53,819 bases of DNA from an uncultured Acidobacteriota bacterium (GTDB lineage: Bacteria > Acidobacteriota > Thermoanaerobaculia > UBA5066): assembly GCA_903845115.1 (NCBI GenBank), contig CAIMWE010000015.1, positions 1-53,819 on the forward strand, in the 5' to 3' direction. The position numbers and the translations under genes were made by a program. Shown here piece by piece: positions 46,583-53,814 of this stretch. Every line of letters starts with the position of its first letter. Within the stretch, counting starts at the first letter, position 1. The notes below the pieces were generated by a model that was not told the origin of the DNA, searched no databases, and was given only the letters and a program-made list of their open reading frames with translations.

Positions 46583-46659
46583 GGTGGGAGTAGCTCAGTC
46601 GGTAGAGCATCGGACTGTGGCTCCGATGGTCGCGGGTTCGAACCCCGTCTCTCACCCCA
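46583..46659 (+). tRNA. tRNA-His (GTG)
   Basis: A complete cloverleaf. The acceptor stem GTGGGAG pairs with CTCTCAC (one G-T), the anticodon arm is TCGGA-CTGTGGC-TCCGA with anticodon GTG, and the T arm is GCGGGTTCGAACCCCGT. The extra G at -1 opposite C73 that marks histidine tRNAs is encoded, and CCA is in the DNA. It is 36 bases from the next tRNA on the same strand. Confidence 0.97.
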
Positions 46660-46695: not shown

Positions 46696-46773
46696 GCGCC
46701 CGTAGCTCAGCCCGGATAGAGCGTTAGACTCCGGATCTAAAGGTCCCGCGTTCGAATCGCGGCGGGCGCACCA
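46696..46773 (+). tRNA. tRNA-Arg (CCG)
   Basis: A complete cloverleaf with acceptor stem GCGCCCG/CGGGCGC, anticodon arm TTAGA-CTCCGGA-TCTAA (anticodon CCG, reading CGG) and an encoded CCA. Its 3' part is repeated perfectly 1072 bases downstream, so this gene appears to have served as an integration site. Confidence 0.97.
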
Positions 46774-46778
46774 TCTTC
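46729..46778 (+). repeat. Attachment-type direct repeat, copy 1 (tRNA-Arg 3' end)
   Basis: The 50 bases from the anticodon loop of tRNA-Arg through CCA and five bases beyond are identical to 47801-47850. Similarity continues less exactly into the following terminator of both copies. An intact tRNA at one end and its 3' part at the other is the classic scar of site-specific integration into a tRNA gene. Confidence 0.8.
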
Positions 46779-46794
46779 TATCTAAAAGACTTAG

Positions 46795-46818
46795 GACTCG
46801 TTTCGGCGGGTCTTTTTT
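46795..46818 (+). terminator. Intrinsic terminator after the tRNA genes
   Basis: GACTCG and CGGGTC form a 6-bp stem (one G-T) with loop TTTCGG, directly followed by six T. It lies 21 bases after tRNA-Arg and has a similar counterpart beyond the second repeat. Confidence 0.8.
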
Positions 46819-46960
46819 CTTGCCCGAAATCGGCCTCCGTGCCAGTGGTCGTAGCGGGGCCGGTGGGTGGCACTCGGTAAGCGTACCCGTCCCCTTGGGC
46901 GGCGCCAGGGTTTCGGCATTCGAGTGCCGGCTTCCCTGGGACCCGGCCGCCATGGCGTTA

Positions 46961-47461
46961 TTACTGCCTGTCGAACACCATGGTGCCGCTCGTCGCCTTA
47001 CCCTCTGAATCGACCCCCTTGTACGTGATCGTCATGGTCTTCCCGTCCTCAGACACGGTGTTCCTTCCGGCCTGGTACAGGCTTCCGTCTCTCTTGGTCT
47101 CGAATTCCCATCCCCGCGGGCCGCTCGGCTTCAACGCGATTGTCCAGACGCTCTGAGAACCCTTGATGACCCACGGGTAGGGCTTGCCGTCCAACCGCGC
47201 AGCTAGTTCCCGGTAGAAAGGACTGCCCTGCGCATCCACCGCCTCGAAGACGGAATGCAACACGCCGCCGCCCCAATCCTCGTAGATCCGGTTTTCACTC
47301 TTGAAACCGGGGCCTGGTTCGAATTTCGACTTGGCGACGTTCAGCTTCCACTTGCCGACGGCGGGGTTAGGGGAGGCCGCCGGGGGTGCCGCAGAGGCGG
47401 CAAGCGCTGAAAGTACGGTGGCAGCAAATACGGCAACAACGGTACGGCAACTAACGTTCAT
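46961..47461 (-). CDS. Exported beta-rich protein inside the tRNA-bounded segment, function unknown
   Basis: A 166-residue secreted protein with signal peptide VVAVFAATVLSALAASA. The mature part opens with VGKWKLNVAKSKFEPGPGF and repeats a lipocalin-like strand pattern (KTMTITYKGVDSEGKAT near the end). This style of small secreted protein is common in acidobacterial genomes, but I cannot name the family. AAGGAAG precedes the ATG. Base composition is visibly less GC-rich than in the neighbouring core genes. It is the only clear gene between the two 50-bp tRNA-Arg repeats. Confidence 0.75.
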   Translation of the reverse strand: MNVSCRTVVAVFAATVLSALAASAAPPAASPNPAVGKWKLNVAKSKFEPGPGFKSENRIYEDWGGGVLHSVFEAVDAQGSPFYRELAARLDGKPYPWVIKGSQSVWTIALKPSGPRGWEFETKRDGSLYQAGRNTVSEDGKTMTITYKGVDSEGKATSGTMVFDRQ

Positions 47462-47727
47462 CGGTCTTCCTTTCTGTCCGGAAGACTACAGGACCCACTT
47501 CTTGCTGCAAGGAGAATTGGCCTTGGATACGGACGCCCGGGCGTCCCCGCGTAGCTCTTCTGAGAGATCCCTTCGCCAAGGTAACGGCGGGCACCTATGA
47601 CGCCGAACCGCTCACCTACCGGATCACCCGCAGGGGAGATTCCTGATCCTGTCCCGTCGTCAGGAGCAGCTCGGATTGTCCGCCTTCTGTCCGTGCTGAC
47701 GTCCGGTAAGAGCCAGGAAGAAGAAAG

Positions 47728-47750
47728 GGCGGGGGCTGTTAACCCCCGCC
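47728..47750 (-). terminator. Orphan hairpin terminator
   Basis: GGCGGGGG-CTGTTAA-CCCCCGCC is a perfect 8-bp stem. On the minus strand it runs into CTTTCTTCTTCC. No gene to its right reads toward it, so it may be left over from a lost minus-strand gene. Confidence 0.6.
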
Positions 47751-47800
47751 ATCCGAATACCTTTGGGCTTAGAAATTGAAGCCCGAAATGCGAATATCCT

Positions 47801-47850
47801 CTCCGGATCTAAAGGTCCCGCGTTCGAATCGCGGCGGGCGCACCATCTTC
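47801..47850 (+). repeat. Attachment-type direct repeat, copy 2 (tRNA-Arg fragment)
   Basis: Perfect 50-bp copy of the 3' part of tRNA-Arg, including CCA, but with no 5' half, so it cannot be a functional tRNA. The bases before it are unrelated to the tRNA. Confidence 0.8.
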
Positions 47851-47865
47851 CATTCAAACGACTTG

Positions 47866-47890
47866 GGACCCGTTCACGCGGGTCCTTTTT
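47866..47890 (+). terminator. Intrinsic terminator after the second repeat
   Basis: GGACCCG-TTCACG-CGGGTCC followed by five T. The sequence resembles the terminator after the intact tRNA-Arg with several substitutions that keep pairing, showing that the duplicated segment extends beyond the tRNA itself. Confidence 0.78.
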
Positions 47891-48085
47891 CGCGCCTGTT
47901 TTCGGGCCGACTGCCTTTCGGTTGCGTTAGCCGCGGGGGTTCGGGCCGGAGTCCCGACGAATCCTCCGCCCCTCGGAGGCGTCAGGGCTTCCGGGGCAGA
48001 GGGTCCGCGGGCATGGCCTCGGTCTGTCTCCCGCGTATCCTTCGTCGCGGATCAACGGAAACGCCATGTTCGACGGAGGCGGTCG

Positions 48086-50989
48086 CTGAAACCTGAGGAA
48101 TCCGCCCGCAAGAAGATCGACGAGCAGCTCGCCGCCGCCGGCTGGGCGGTGCAGGACGTCGCGGCGATGAACGTCCACGGCGCCCAGGGGGTCGCCGTGC
48201 GCGAGTTCCCGCTCGTCAAGGGGTACGGCACCGCGGACTACGTCCTCTACGTGGATGGCCAGGTCGTCGGCGTCATCGAGGCCAAGAAGGAGGGGACGCC
48301 GCTCGCCGGTGTCGAGCTTCAGGCCGAGCGGTACGCCCACGGCCTCGGAGACTCCGTCCCGGCCCCGCTCCGGCCCCTCGCCTTCCGCTACCTCTCGACG
48401 GGCATCGAGACCCGCTTCGCGAACTACCTCGACCCTGAGCCCCGCAGCCGGAGCCTCTTCCACTTCCACCGCCCGGCCGTCCTCCAGGAGTGGCTGGCCG
48501 CCGACCCCCTGCCAGCCCGGGGAGACCTCTACCCGGTCGGCGAGGACGCCAGCCGCCCCTCCACCTTCCGGGGGCGCGTCCGGACCATGCCTCCGCTCGT
48601 CACCACCGGTCTCTGGCCCGCCCAGATCCAGGCGATCCGGAACCTGGAGGCCTCCTTCGGCCAGGACCGGCCCCGGGCCCTCATCCAGATGGCCACGGGC
48701 TCCGGGAAGACCTTCACCGCCATCTCCTCGGTCTACCGCCTCATCAAGCACGCCGGGGCCCGGCGAGTCCTCTTCCTGGTCGACCGCGCCAACCTGGGGC
48801 GGCAGGCCCACAAGGAGTTCCAGCAGTACACGACCCCGGACGACGGCCGGAAGTTCACGGAGCTGTACAACGTTCAGCTCCTTTCCTGTAACCAGATCGA
48901 CCCGGTCGCCAAGGTCGTCATCACCACCATCCAGCGGCTCTACTCGATGCTGAAGGGGGACGCCGACCTCGACCCGACCCTGGAGGAAGGCTCCCAGTAC
49001 GACACCGGGGGGAGCCTGGTCCGCGAGCCGGTCCCGGTCGCGTACAACGCCGCCCTCCCGATCGAGCTGTTCGACGTCCTTTTCGTCGACGAGTGTCACC
49101 GGTCGATCTATTCCCTCTGGCGGCAGGTCCTGGAGTACTTCGACGCCAGCGTCGTCGGCCTGACCGCCACCCCCTCCAAGCAGACCTTCGGCTTCTTCAA
49201 CCAGAACCTCGTCATGGAGTACGGCCACCCTCAGGCCGTCGCCGACGGCGTCAACGTCGACTACGACGTCTACCGGATCCGGACCCGGATCACCGAGCAG
49301 GGCTCCACCATCGAGGCCGGGAGCGTGGAGGCAGTCGGAAAGCGCGACCGCGAGACGCGGGCCGTCCGGTGGGAGAAGCTCGACGAGGACGTCACCTATG
49401 CCGGGACCGACCTGGACCGGGACGTCGTCGCTCTCGACCAGATCCGGACGGTGGTCCGAACATTCCGGGACCGTCTCTTCACGGAAATCTTCCCCGGCCG
49501 CCGCGAGGTGCCGAAGACCCTGATCTTCGCCAAGGACGACAGCCACGCTGACGACGTCGTCAAGATCCTCCGGGAGGAGTTCGGGAAGGGGAACGACTTC
49601 GCCGAGAAGATCACCTACCGGACCGGAACGGCCCGCGTGGTGACGAAGGGGGTCGGGCCGGACGGGAAGGAGACCGAGCGGGTCGACTACAAGGCGACGG
49701 GGGTGAAGCCCGAGGACCTCCTCTCCTCCTTCCGGAACAGCTACAACCCCCGCGTCGTCGTCACCGTCGACATGATCGCTACCGGGACCGACATCAAGCC
49801 GCTGGAGATCGTCTGGTTCCTCCGGGCCGTCAAGAGCCGGAACTTCTTCGAGCAGATGAAGGGGAGGGGAGTCCGGGTGATCAGCCCGACCGAACTCCAG
49901 GCCGTCACGACCGACGCCACCTCCAAGGACCGCTTCGTCCTGGTCGACTGCGTCGGGATCTGCGAGAGCGACCTGATCGACTCCCCGCCCCTGGAGAAGA
50001 AGAAGAGCATCTCCCTGGAGAAGCTCCTCCAGCTAGTGGCGATGGGGAACACCGAACCCGACGTCCTCTCCTCCCTGGCGTCCCGCCTCGCCAGGATCGA
50101 CCGGAAGATCGGCGAGCCCGACCGGGAAGCCCTGGCGAAGGTGGCCGGAGGGGTGCCGCTCGCCGGGATCGTCTCGGAGGTGGTCGAGGCCCTCGAACCC
50201 GACCGCCAGGTCCAGGAGGCCAGGCGCCGAGAGAACCTTCCGCCGGGGACAGAACCGACCGAGGTCCAGGTGAAGAAGGCGGCCGAGGCCCTCCTGACCG
50301 AGGCCGCGAAGCCGATCGCCAGCAACCCGACGCTCCGCAACGCACTCCTTCTCGTCCAGAAGGCGCTGGACCAGGTCCTCGACGAGGTGAGCAAGGACGA
50401 GATCCTGGAGGCCGGGTACTCGGAGGCGGCCCGCGAGAAGGCGCACAACCTGGTGACCTCGTTCGAGACGTTCCTCAAGGAGAACAAGGACGAGATCACG
50501 GCGCTCCAGGTCCTCTACAGTCGCCCCTATCGGCAGCGGCTGAAGTACGAGGACGTGAAGGCCCTGGTCGACGCCCTGAAGGCCCCGCCCCGGTCGTGGA
50601 CGCCGGACCTCCTCTGGCGGGCCTACGAGACGCTGGAGAAGAGCAGAGTGAAGGGCGCCGCGTCTCGGCGCCTCCTGACCGACGTCGTCTCGCTCGTCCG
50701 GTTCGCCCTGCACGACGAGGGGGAGCTGGTGCCGTTCAGCGAGAAGGTGGCGGCCCGGTTCGAGAAGTGGATCGCGGACCATGAGATGCGGGGGGAGGCG
50801 TTCACGGCGGAGCAGCGGCAGTGGCTGGAGGACATCCGGGACCACATCGCAGCGAACCTGCGGATCGAGGCGGATGACTTCGAGTACGTCCCGTTTGGGC
50901 AGAAGGGGGGCCTGGGGCGGGCGCATCAGCTGTTCGGGGCGCGGTTGGTGACCCTGCTGGATGAGTTGAATGAGGCGCTGGCGGCGTGA
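48086..50989 (+). CDS. hsdR: Type I restriction enzyme, R subunit
   Basis: A 967-residue motor-nuclease. The nuclease core has D and E-x-K in YVDGQVVGVIEAKKEG, followed by SF2 helicase motifs: QMATGSGKTFTA (I), DECHRS (II), LTATPSKQ (III), MIATGTDIKP (V) and QMKGRGVRV (VI), then a helical C-terminus that binds the methylase. I extended the start to a CTG with GGAGG six bases upstream because codons 1-21 (LKPEESARKKIDEQLAAAGW) match the usual N-terminus; the first GTG, at 48149, would remove it. The stop overlaps hsdS by GTGA. Restriction needs HsdM, which is not in this window. No 5' sign of a methylase gene exists between it and the tRNA-Arg repeat. Confidence 0.9.
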   Translation: MKPEESARKKIDEQLAAAGWAVQDVAAMNVHGAQGVAVREFPLVKGYGTADYVLYVDGQVVGVIEAKKEGTPLAGVELQAERYAHGLGDSVPAPLRPLAFRYLSTGIETRFANYLDPEPRSRSLFHFHRPAVLQEWLAADPLPARGDLYPVGEDASRPSTFRGRVRTMPPLVTTGLWPAQIQAIRNLEASFGQDRPRALIQMATGSGKTFTAISSVYRLIKHAGARRVLFLVDRANLGRQAHKEFQQYTTPDDGRKFTELYNVQLLSCNQIDPVAKVVITTIQRLYSMLKGDADLDPTLEEGSQYDTGGSLVREPVPVAYNAALPIELFDVLFVDECHRSIYSLWRQVLEYFDASVVGLTATPSKQTFGFFNQNLVMEYGHPQAVADGVNVDYDVYRIRTRITEQGSTIEAGSVEAVGKRDRETRAVRWEKLDEDVTYAGTDLDRDVVALDQIRTVVRTFRDRLFTEIFPGRREVPKTLIFAKDDSHADDVVKILREEFGKGNDFAEKITYRTGTARVVTKGVGPDGKETERVDYKATGVKPEDLLSSFRNSYNPRVVVTVDMIATGTDIKPLEIVWFLRAVKSRNFFEQMKGRGVRVISPTELQAVTTDATSKDRFVLVDCVGICESDLIDSPPLEKKKSISLEKLLQLVAMGNTEPDVLSSLASRLARIDRKIGEPDREALAKVAGGVPLAGIVSEVVEALEPDRQVQEARRRENLPPGTEPTEVQVKKAAEALLTEAAKPIASNPTLRNALLLVQKALDQVLDEVSKDEILEAGYSEAAREKAHNLVTSFETFLKENKDEITALQVLYSRPYRQRLKYEDVKALVDALKAPPRSWTPDLLWRAYETLEKSRVKGAASRRLLTDVVSLVRFALHDEGELVPFSEKVAARFEKWIADHEMRGEAFTAEQRQWLEDIRDHIAANLRIEADDFEYVPFGQKGGLGRAHQLFGARLVTLLDELNEALAA

Positions 50990-52500
50990 GGAACCGTAGC
51001 CCTGGGAGCGTTCCACCAGAGAACTCAGCCGGCACGTGCAAGGCCAGTCTCCCTCGCTCTTGGAGCTGGGTCGATCTTGCGGACCTGGCGGAGGTTCGCC
51101 TCGGACGGCAGCGGTCGCCGGCCCAACACTCTGGGCCTCACATGCGTCCATATCTGCGAGCCGCTAACGTGACGTGGAAGGGCCTGGATCTTCGGGATGT
51201 CAACGAGATGAACTTCCCGCCGGACCAAGTAGAGCAATACCGGCTACAGCCTGGCGACATCCTGCTCGCCGAGGCATCCGGTAGCGCCAGCGAGGTCGGC
51301 AAGCCTGCCCTCTGGAACGGCGAGATCGACGACTGTTGTTTTCAGAACACCCTCATCCGCATCCGACCGAAAACTGCGCTCTCGAAATACCTCCTTCTCC
51401 ACTTCACCGGGGATGCGTCCCTCGGGCGCTTCTCGCACGCAGCACGGGGCGTCGGGATACATCACCTGGGCGCTGCAGCGATGACTGCATGGCCAGTCGC
51501 CTTGGCGCCGCTCCCCGAGCAGCGCCGCATCGTCGACGAAATCGAAAAGCAGTTCGCGCGGCTGGACGCGGCGGTCGCAGGACTGAAGCGGGTCCAGGCG
51601 AGCCTGAAGAGGTACCGGGCCTCGGTCCTGAAGGCTGCCTGCGAGGGGCGGCTCGTCTCCACTGAGGCCGAGCTGGCCCGCCGGGAGGGGCGTGCTCTCG
51701 GAACCGCCGACCAACTCACGGAACAGACACGAGGAGCAAAGGAATCTTTGCTGAAGGGGACTAATGACGGGTTGGTTCCTGAAGGGTGGCGCTTTAGCCC
51801 GCTGGAGCCCCTCCTCTCAGAGCCCCTAGTAAACGGTCGGTCGGTCCCGGATCGAGAGGGCGGCTTCCCAGTCCTTCGACTTACCTGCCTTGGGGCCGGG
51901 CGAGTGGACCTCTCGGCCTTCAAGGAGGGGGCCTGGACCAGGGCGGAAGCGACACCGTACCTGGTACGCGACGGTGACTTTCTGATCGCCCGCGGGAACG
52001 GATCCCTTCGGCTTGTAGGTCGCGGGGGCCTGGTGGATGGCTCGGATGGCTCGGTCGCCTTTCCGGATACGCTGATCCGGGTCCGACCAGATCTTGAAAG
52101 CGTCGATCCCAGGTTTCTATGCCAGATATGGGCTGCGCCCTTTGTGAGGCGGCAGATCGAGGCATCCGCAAGAACGACCGCGGGGATTTACAAGGTCAAC
52201 CAGGATCATCTCCGGGGCATCCTGTTGCCTCTGCCCCCTCTCGCTGAGCAACACCGCCTCGTCGCCGAGGTCGACCGCCGCCTCTCAGTCATCGACGAAC
52301 TGGAGTCCACCATCGACACCAACCTCGCCCGCTGCGCCCGCCTCCGTCAGTCGATCCTGAAGCGGGCCTTCGAGGGGAAGCTCGTCCCCCAGGACCCGAA
52401 CGACGAGCCGGCCAGCGCGCTCCTCGCCAGGCTGCGCAAGGAACGAGATGAGGAGCCTGGCCGTCCGGCGAAGCGGAAACCGAGGCGCGCTGGCGACTAG
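50986..52500 (+). CDS. hsdS: Type I restriction specificity subunit
   Basis: A 504-residue DNA-recognition protein with two target-recognition domains. The first spans about 25-175 and ends in LAPLPEQRRIVDEIEKQFAR, followed by a coiled-coil spacer; the second begins near VPEGWRFSPLEPL (about 265) and ends in LPPLAEQHRLVAEVDRRL, with another spacer ending in RLRQSILKRAFEGKLVPQDP. The two spacers have the duplicated pattern usual for HsdS. GTG start overlapping hsdR by four bases. The second domain contains A/T-richer stretches (about 51700-51780) than the rest, as expected for a swappable specificity domain. It directs the R and M subunits to a bipartite DNA site. Confidence 0.9.
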   Translation: MRNRSPGSVPPENSAGTCKASLPRSWSWVDLADLAEVRLGRQRSPAQHSGPHMRPYLRAANVTWKGLDLRDVNEMNFPPDQVEQYRLQPGDILLAEASGSASEVGKPALWNGEIDDCCFQNTLIRIRPKTALSKYLLLHFTGDASLGRFSHAARGVGIHHLGAAAMTAWPVALAPLPEQRRIVDEIEKQFARLDAAVAGLKRVQASLKRYRASVLKAACEGRLVSTEAELARREGRALGTADQLTEQTRGAKESLLKGTNDGLVPEGWRFSPLEPLLSEPLVNGRSVPDREGGFPVLRLTCLGAGRVDLSAFKEGAWTRAEATPYLVRDGDFLIARGNGSLRLVGRGGLVDGSDGSVAFPDTLIRVRPDLESVDPRFLCQIWAAPFVRRQIEASARTTAGIYKVNQDHLRGILLPLPPLAEQHRLVAEVDRRLSVIDELESTIDTNLARCARLRQSILKRAFEGKLVPQDPNDEPASALLARLRKERDEEPGRPAKRKPRRAGD

Positions 52501-52631
52501 GAGACCGAGAGGACCTTCGCCACCTGGACGCGGAGGACGGGGAGGTCCCTCGAGGCGATGTCCCACACGACATCCAGGTCGATGGTGAAGTACTCGTGTG
52601 CGATCCGGCTGAAGAGGGCGCCGGAGTGGCG
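52497..52631 (-). pseudogene. Fragment of a HepT/DUF86-type HEPN ribonuclease gene
   Basis: The C-terminal 44 residues of a HEPN toxin of the HepT/DUF86 family are readable: IAHEYFTIDLDVVWDIASRD then LPVLRVQVAKVL. The N-terminal two thirds, including the first Arg of the R-x4-H active motif and any MntA-type nucleotidyltransferase antitoxin, are missing. The stop overlaps the end of hsdS by three bases on the opposite strand. Homology is limited to this short segment; confidence rests on the well-known VVW and DLP pattern. Confidence 0.6.
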
Positions 52632-52687
52632 TTCTTCGCGAACGACGAATGCGAGGCAGAGCTGGCTTGACCCGCTCGAGGGTGTTA

Positions 52688-52697
52688 ACCTGTAGGT
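52688..52697. promoter_or_regulatory. Palindrome before the toxin gene, possible operator
   Basis: ACCT-GT-AGGT sits four bases before the toxin start. Toxin-antitoxin promoters are often repressed by the antitoxin at such inverted repeats. A TTGACC hexamer lies at 52667-52672, but no matching -10 is clear. Confidence 0.35.
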
Positions 52698-52701
52698 AAA
52701 T

Positions 52702-53109
52702 ATGATGCTGCGAGTCGTCATTCAGGCCAGATGGAAGGTCGTGACGACGGTCGGAGAGGATGGACGCTGCGCGCTCGTGGAGTTCCTGGACGGGCTTGAG
52801 GGTGAGCTAAGTGGTGATCGGGTCAAGGTCCTGCGGCGGCTCCGATACCTGGCCGAGCAGGGGATCATCCGGAACGAGGAGCAGTCGCGCCGCATCGAGG
52901 GTGCGGACCGTGTCTTCGAGCTGAAGGGCGGCGCGGTGAGGGTGTTCTACTTTTTCGACCGGGATTGCATTGTCATCTGCTCCCATGGGGTCCTGAAGCC
53001 GAAGAAGAAGCAGGTGCTCGGGGAAGCCCGGAAAGCCGAGCTGCTCCGGGAGGAGGTCGCGAGGGCTCGCCAGGTCGGGGCGCTCGTGATCGAGGAGGAA
53101 GGAAGATGA
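52702..53109 (+). CDS. RelE/HigB-like (DUF891/Gp49-type) toxin
   Basis: A 135-residue basic protein with the RelE-type pattern: an N-terminal helix region LVEFLDGLEGELSGDRVKVL, then IEGADRVFELKGGAVRVFYF and a C-terminal KPKKKQVLGEARKAE helix, matching the phage-derived Gp49/DUF891 branch of HigB-like toxins. These cleave ribosome-bound mRNA or act in related ways. Its stop overlaps the antitoxin start (ATGA); toxin-first order with an HTH antitoxin is typical of higBA loci. Two consecutive ATG codons follow TAGGT; I chose the first. Confidence 0.85.
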   Translation: MMLRVVIQARWKVVTTVGEDGRCALVEFLDGLEGELSGDRVKVLRRLRYLAEQGIIRNEEQSRRIEGADRVFELKGGAVRVFYFFDRDCIVICSHGVLKPKKKQVLGEARKAELLREEVARARQVGALVIEEEGR

Positions 53110-53465
53110 AGGAACGGACTTTCCGGGACCTGTACGCAGAAGCGGAGAAGAGCCTCACCTACCAGGTGGAAGGGGCGATCCTCGAGTTCACCGAGGAGCT
53201 CTGCCGCCTGATGGAATCCCAGGGGGTCTCGAGGGCCGAGCTCGCGCGCCGGCTCGACACCAGTCCGGCCTATGTCACGAAGATCCTCCGCGGAAACTCG
53301 AACTTCACCCTCGAGACGATGGTGCGTATGGCTCAGGCCGTGGGGTGCGAATTGAAGGTTCGGATGACCCCGATCTCCTCGACGACGGTCCTTGTGAACG
53401 AATACGACAGGCTGGCGCCTCAGCAGGTCGCGGAGAACCGGGCGCCCTACGGGGAGAAGAAATAG
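53106..53465 (+). CDS. HigA-like antitoxin with Xre-family HTH
   Basis: A 119-residue DNA-binding protein. An N-terminal helical arm (RTFRDLYAEAEKSL) precedes an Xre-type helix-turn-helix at about 38-75, VSRAELARRLDTSPAYVTKI then NFTLETMVRMAQAVGC. The tail contains ISSTTVLVNEYDRLAP. It should bind the toxin encoded directly upstream and repress the pair, perhaps at the palindrome before the toxin gene. Four-base overlap with the toxin. Confidence 0.87.
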   Translation: MKERTFRDLYAEAEKSLTYQVEGAILEFTEELCRLMESQGVSRAELARRLDTSPAYVTKILRGNSNFTLETMVRMAQAVGCELKVRMTPISSTTVLVNEYDRLAPQQVAENRAPYGEKK

Positions 53466-53479
53466 GTCGTGGCTAACGG

Positions 53480-53534
53480 GGTCTCTACTCTGTGGCTTTC
53501 ATCCGTTCAACCTGAATATCACAGTATAGAGACC
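53480..53534. repeat. Imperfect 15-bp inverted repeat
   Basis: GGTCTCTACTCTGTG and CACAGTATAGAGACC pair at 13 of 15 positions around a 25-base loop, forming a plausible stem. It lies 14 bases after the antitoxin stop and may act as a terminator or as a mobile-element remnant. Confidence 0.6.
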
Positions 53535-53576
53535 TGACCCCTATTTCTGACCCCTATTTCGCCTGACCCCAATTTC
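53535..53576. repeat. Three TGACCCC direct repeats
   Basis: TGACCCCTATTTC occurs twice back to back and a third time, after GCC, as TGACCCCAATTTC. Such TGACCCC/GGGGTCA strings are often seen next to REP-type palindromes or decayed transposition sequences. They directly follow the inverted repeat and precede a TAGAAT hexamer (53584) before the next gene. Confidence 0.7.
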
Positions 53577-53595
53577 GCCAAGCTAGAATCGAGGC

Positions 53596-53814
53596 ATGCG
53601 GCCGGATCTCCTCTCCGAAGTCATGGGCCTCCCTCCGACCGAGCGGCTCGAGCTGATCGAGGCTCTTTGGGACACGCTGTCGCCGGGCGAGTTTCCGGTG
53701 ACAGAGGAGGAGCGCCGAGCCCTGGATCAGCGGATAGCCGAGATGGAGACGTCCCCGGGCGACGAGAGCCCCTGGTCTGAAGTCAAGGCTCGGCTCGCAG
53801 AACGTCGTTCTTGA
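53596..53814 (+). CDS. Addiction-module antitoxin component (RelB-like)
   Basis: A 72-residue protein with the signature of the putative addiction module component family (TIGR02574-like): LPPTERLELIEALWDTL near the start and an Asp/Glu-rich C-terminus (EVKARLAERRS). Such antitoxins pair with a ParE/RelE-type toxin encoded next downstream, which would fall beyond this window. GAGG lies close before the ATG. A TAGAAT hexamer upstream may serve the promoter. Confidence 0.82.
   Translation: MRPDLLSEVMGLPPTERLELIEALWDTLSPGEFPVTEEERRALDQRIAEMETSPGDESPWSEVKARLAERRS

Follow-up and report, generated by a model that had tools for sequence, protein, structure and literature searches.

Genomic islands located at tRNA genes are defined by Islander as a tRNA gene (tDNA) together with the displaced fragment of that gene. 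In this collection, 2083 islands with anticodon-centred crossovers are reported, and island length is restricted to 2-200 kb (PMC4383910). Decay of an element to a segment of which only the att ends are left, and later stacking of another element at the same site, has been described for CIMEs (PMC5704250). In Dehalococcoides, 15 islands devoid of integrase are reported to lie between copies of the end of an RNA gene, ssrA (PMC3146451).

The window considered here is the whole stretch of 53,819 nucleotides that was analysed, and it corresponds to the entire contig C15 of an Acidobacteriota draft genome (G000; 5.85 Mb in 305 contigs). It contains a 1.07-kb segment that shares with the tRNA islands of Islander an intact tRNA gene, a downstream 3' fragment of this gene in direct orientation, a boundary in the anticodon loop and foreign DNA between the two copies, but differs from them in having no integrase and in its size (PMC4383910). 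With a spacing of 1072 bp, it lies outside the 2-200 kb length range, and a case of this kind is filtered out by Islander because it is below the 2-kb cut-off. Like CIMEs, the segment is bounded by att-like ends, contains no integration or transfer genes (as judged from ORFs and Pfam) and lies beside other foreign DNA at the site; unlike them, it has one gene only, its att ends are known as sequence and its ICE/IME origin is putative (PMC5704250). Serial RNA-gene 3' ends that bound segments, many of them without integrase, are also the mark of the Dehalococcoides ssrA islands, which differ by their tmRNA target, serine recombinase, T-loop crossover and longer arrays (PMC3146451).

The locus is a further example of a well-known kind of island remnant, and it leaves the understanding of how such islands arise unchanged. 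With it, tRNA-Arg(CCG) is documented as a hotspot of recurrent insertion and of defence genes in one family of Acidobacteriota, with type I restriction in one genus and BREX accompanied by a phage-type integrase in another. Integrase-less remnants under the usual size filters are easily found once congeneric empty sites are compared.

Structure of the tRNA-Arg(CCG) locus

The intact tRNA-Arg(CCG) gene (46696-46773, forward strand; ARAGORN and Rfam tRNA) is the presumed integration target, in the form of a reconstituted gene. It is preceded by tRNA-His(GTG) (46584-46659, forward strand; ARAGORN), the upstream member of a conserved His-Arg tRNA pair that is found across the family. A perfect direct repeat of 50 nt on the forward strand comprises the last 45 bases of tRNA-Arg and 5 more. 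Copy 1 (attL-like; 46729-46778) extends from the anticodon loop to 5 nt past CCA, and copy 2 (attR-like; 47801-47850) is a 3' fragment of the tRNA located 1072 nt downstream. The repeat starts at nucleotide 34 of tRNA-Arg, with which the 7-nt anticodon loop (CTCCGGA) begins, a position at which tRNA-targeting tyrosine integrases are known to cross over. The repeat is not considered as a chance occurrence because no other 25-mer recurs in the 53.8-kb window. Ungapped similarity of the two copies runs to about 105 nt, with 85% identity overall, and the putative 50-nt att core is perfectly preserved at both ends. Each copy is followed on the forward strand by a terminator-like hairpin and a T-run, at 46793-46819 (fold z of -1.4) and 47865-47890 (fold z of -2.9) respectively, and 44 of the 60 nt past CCA are identical between the copies. 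An earlier sequence-only reading of this DNA had already described the tRNA gene and its 3' fragment as direct repeats 1072 bases apart with related but diverged terminators, and both statements were borne out.

The insert has a G+C content of 61%, vs 70% for the window. Its only convincing gene is an ORF of 166 aa on the reverse strand (46961-47461), the cargo, which encodes a predicted secreted protein with a signal-like N-terminus and matched no Pfam family. The structural model of this protein (mean pLDDT 86) is a predicted closed up-and-down beta barrel, whose closest solved folds are of the lipocalin/FABP type (Foldseek E-value of 1e-4 for 4i3b; VIA Z of 14.7 over 121 residues for 5xn9), and it points to a predicted lipocalin/FABP-like calycin fold. 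Sequence identity to these structural matches is 10-13%, and therefore no ligand or function is implied. Relatives of the cargo protein with 30-42% identity were found within the family in genus g2, in further members of the order and in additional records bearing the title Acidobacteria; the relative in genome G008 is identical to a protein in PLZI01000097.1 (Acidobacteria bacterium palsa_351), which assigns the family to Acidobacteriota. A scan of contigs with the cargo retrieved only four distant relatives, in records titled Acidobacteria, Bryobacterales or Terriglobia. The gene is single-copy, it is absent from the congener and from 6 of the 7 other genera of the family, and none of its relatives within the family lies on a tRNA-Arg contig. 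In none of the other genomes searched was it adjacent to a tRNA-Arg fragment.

No integrase was found between tRNA-Arg and its 3' fragment (one plausible ORF, without Pfam hit), and a six-frame search of the right third of the insert (47462-47845) gave no recognisable integrase remnant. One frame of this interval ends in ...RISGFNF at a stop just before an orphan GC-rich hairpin (47729-47749, no strand assigned). The hairpin is perhaps the terminator of a gene that would have been truncated at the right junction, and the frame could be the tail of that gene, the match being very short. An insert holding one exported-protein gene and a hairpin, with no integrase, is also what the sequence-only reading had reported.

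Restriction and toxin genes past copy 2 had been proposed from the letters, and Pfam confirmed them. All are on the forward strand: hsdR, of type I restriction (48149-50989, the true start of which may be about 60 nt upstream), and hsdS, the specificity subunit (50986-52500), both also recognised by PADLOC; a Gp49/RelE-like putative toxin (52702-53109; PF05973); and an HTH putative antitoxin (53106-53465; HTH_3), for which the listed ORF is 52965-53465 and the ATG at 53106 was chosen by eye. Downstream of the HTH gene, positions 53510-53600 contain short words that recur (GACCCCTATTTC-like), before the contig end, which is likely an assembly break.

The RNase G gene of this genome is carried by a separate contig, C236, where it is preceded by an hsdM gene cut at the contig edge. 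This hsdM, the only canonical one of the genome, is without the first 38 (N-terminal) profile positions only, and it is likely the partner of the hsdR-hsdS genes of the window. Between hsdM and RNase G are a gene of UPF0175, an antitoxin-like family, one for a small predicted lipoprotein and further ORFs. The hsdR and hsdS genes and the toxin-antitoxin-like pair (48149-53465), together with hsdM and the UPF0175 gene (L072 1-2983), probably form one defence module adjoining RNase G. The simplest reading is that C15 and C236 are neighbours, a join that we infer. Because RNase G is found on another contig beside the only canonical hsdM, which matches hsdR-hsdS, about 10 kb of island DNA probably lies between tRNA-Arg and RNase G, with the 1.07-kb segment as the left part; hsdR probably belongs to the same island as this segment. 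Of the 1.07-kb element proposed from the sequence, the repeat bounds were confirmed, but the island is probably larger. The window itself has two att-like copies, and no third one was found beside RNase G (C236 1-6000).

The tRNA-Arg site in related genomes

The congener G001 (genome 77% complete, with the tRNA-Arg locus on one contig) is syntenic with the window and about 85% identical to it along the 3.3 kb that end with the final base of tRNA-Arg. Past this base comes a terminator, and the genes for RNase G and RodA, encoded on the opposite strand, follow after about 280 bp. Neither the cargo gene nor a second tRNA copy was found in G001, which provides an empty site in a close relative. 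In the sister genus g5, the flanks are uninterrupted in G005, which is thus also an empty site, while in G009 and G011 the match to G005 stops at the tRNA end on one contig and is taken up again within tRNA-Arg on a second contig. An integrase with an Arm-DNA-bind_3 domain lies 160 bp from the tRNA-Arg junction in G011.

A tyrosine integrase different from that of G011 ends directly behind tRNA-Arg in G003, which belongs to another genus, and is followed by RecT, a YqaJ recombinase, an S24 repressor, BrxA and BrxC (L035 1-9756). The locus is a phage-type integration module followed by BREX genes, and the right end of the element was not found in the 29.8 kb read. This prophage/BREX island resembles the locus of the window by its tRNA-Arg target, its occurrence in the same family, the GACTTAG motif past the tRNA and the presence of defence cargo in the region; unlike the window segment, it encodes an integrase, RecT, YqaJ and a repressor. 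G015, a genome of the same order, has another tRNA-Arg 3' end 7.5 kb further downstream (L048 10315-17945). This interval is devoid of integrase and contains ordinary-looking genes (SOUL-domain, NAD-binding oxidoreductase-like, MerR/B12-binding). Fragments of the tRNA-Arg 3' end were found in six other genomes.

The integrases and the split and repeated tRNA-Arg ends of these relatives indicate that elements use the site repeatedly, with defence genes there in two genera, as had been suggested for the restriction and toxin genes of the window. The structure of the locus had been interpreted as that expected after integration into a tRNA gene, with an empty site in close relatives and a tyrosine integrase at tRNA-Arg(CCG) as the evidence to look for. 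The congener supplies the former; the latter was found in two other genera of the family, with a clean comparison of empty and occupied sites in one of them. The outcomes that had been named as contrary to integration were not encountered: the second copy is not present at every tRNA-Arg locus, and the cargo never occurs at this tRNA elsewhere. An intact parent element (ICE/IME) was not found in the genus of the window. G000 carries other tyrosine recombinases, and the search for a close relative of the G011 integrase in this genome gave none (best E-value of 2e-7, partial).

Cargo-free units of about 145-163 bp were detected behind tRNA-Arg(CCG) in G004, G005, G006, G009 and G011, which belong to genera g4, g5 and g6 (L036 9221-9451, L037 1195-1419, L038 5086-5318, L040 54-258 and L042 3322-3520). 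Each unit consists of the 3' half of the tRNA, in which the anticodon loop is changed (e.g. CGCAGGTA for CTCCGGAT), a terminator like that of the local tRNA and a shared spacer. In each genome the T-arm and the terminator match those of the local tRNA (concerted change), but the loop stays different. There are one or more units per tRNA-Arg, and copy number varies within genus g5. In some of these genomes the units probably adjoined tRNA-Arg before an insertion. The presence of cargo-free units in three genera means that local duplication does occur at tRNA-Arg(CCG), and the tRNA-end copies considered here therefore need not stem directly from an integrase.

Origin of the segment and alternative explanations

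The likely explanation is that tRNA-Arg(CCG) is an attachment site for tyrosine recombinases and that the 1.07-kb segment is a decayed, CIME-like remnant left after integration. In this Acidobacteriota family, the gene would serve as attachment site for elements with such recombinases, and the attP of an incoming element would have contained the part of the tRNA that runs from the anticodon loop to the 3' end. When the two recombined within this loop, in the lineage of the window, the 3' half supplied by the element would have completed an intact tRNA on the left (46696-46778), and the original 3' half would have ended up on the right (47801-47850). A later deletion would have removed the integrase of the element, or of one among several elements stacked there. 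The leftover would be the 1.07-kb segment, whose single secreted-protein gene is enclosed by att-like ends, and next to it a type I restriction and toxin-antitoxin module that would extend to RNase G. Such a remnant could presumably not move alone, and at most might be movable in trans by an integrase of matching specificity. The sequence-only reading had left the choice between a minimal and a decayed element; decay is favoured over a functional minimal element in view of the divergence of the flanking terminators and the absence of an integrase. Counterpoints to integration are that neither an integrase nor a remnant of one was recognised in the insert, and that the assembly is a draft of 305 contigs. 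The present repeat pair may be the direct product of an integrase, or it may have arisen when a site that integrases use was later duplicated.

The main rival is a tandem duplication in situ of the tRNA-Arg 3' half and its terminator, with the cargo entering later by an unrelated route; the att-like look would then be incidental. The cargo-free units of genera g4, g5 and g6 also begin near the anticodon arm, which favours this explanation, as does the fact that the two terminators of the window are more alike than either is to that of the congener. However, the units of the relatives have mutated anticodon loops and share whole spacers, whereas copy 2 of the window has an unmutated loop, its homology to copy 1 is limited to about 105 nt and a kilobase of foreign DNA separates the two. 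Moreover, the congener has a single copy, and integrase-bearing elements demonstrably split the tRNA at this point in g5. Duplication in situ is considered unlikely on these grounds. A better candidate, although it falls short of an even chance, is tandem accretion, which refines the remnant explanation and is not its opposite: the restriction/toxin region would be an older element with copy 2 as its left end, and the 1.07-kb segment would have entered later. The GACTT(A/G)G motif and related terminators at both copies, and an island that runs on through hsdR-hsdS to hsdM and RNase G, agree with accretion, and a stepwise route in which an element decays to a CIME and another one then enters has been described (PMC5704250). 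Accretion of this kind would be marked by three or more serial att copies between the elements. Set against it are a search of C236 (1-6000) that found no third tRNA copy and the flank of copy 2, which also resembles the native flank of the congener and fits a simple right end.

Two further explanations are given very little weight. The segment might be a still mobile single-gene unit, i.e. a minimal tRNA-targeted cassette moved in trans by the integrases of resident elements that share its target. The ends intact as sequence, the small size and the other tyrosine recombinases of the genome are compatible with such a unit, which, if real, would belong to a broader class that escapes island finders with an integrase requirement and a 2-kb minimum. 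It is highly improbable given that the cargo was found with a tRNA-Arg fragment in no other genome searched, that the terminators have diverged by a quarter, suggesting age, and that G000 is without a close relative of the G011 integrase. A misjoin at the repeated tRNA end is conceivable in a 305-contig draft, the more so as the contigs of two relatives break at this tRNA. It is nevertheless scarcely credible, as the region is internal to one contig, the gene order that limits it on the right is accounted for by the RNase G contig, and the two copies are distinguishable because their flanking terminators differ.

The GACTTAG motif beside the tRNA end

The GACTTAG motif located just past tRNA-Arg (46788-46794, forward strand) is common to element-side flanks in relatives and to phage contigs; its counterpart after copy 2 is GACTTGG (47860-47866, forward strand). 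GACTTAG occurs within about 30 nt after the tRNA in G000, G001, G003 and G009, and GACTTA was found at the corresponding position after a tRNA of this type in only 7 of the 148 genomes of the class. The motif was rejected as proof of an element-derived flank, since the apparently empty G001 carries it too; in the genus of the window it may be the trace of an older element or simply native. Because the terminators are related (44/60) and the empty G001 has GACTTAG, the flank of copy 1 is not demonstrable as element DNA. As to which copy has the native flank, comparison with the flank of G001 gave a weak answer: the local score was 28 for copy 2, a value reached by 1 of 500 shuffles, and 20.5 for copy 1, reached by 17 of 500, but the scores of the two copies were equal over the first 60 nt.

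A literature search on the GACTTA motif returned nothing useful. Among viral contigs, 38 have GACTTA next to a tRNA 3' end, vs 11 and 6 for two permuted motifs, and many of the contigs with GACTTA contain a partial tRNA starting at the anticodon loop, with an integrase-like reading frame adjacent. This arrangement would fit an att-associated sequence. The order observed in viral contigs L089-L126 is the tRNA 3' half from the anticodon loop, CCA, ATCAA(N)GACTTA and then the integrase frame; this may be a motif that generally flanks the att sites of a large group of integrases.
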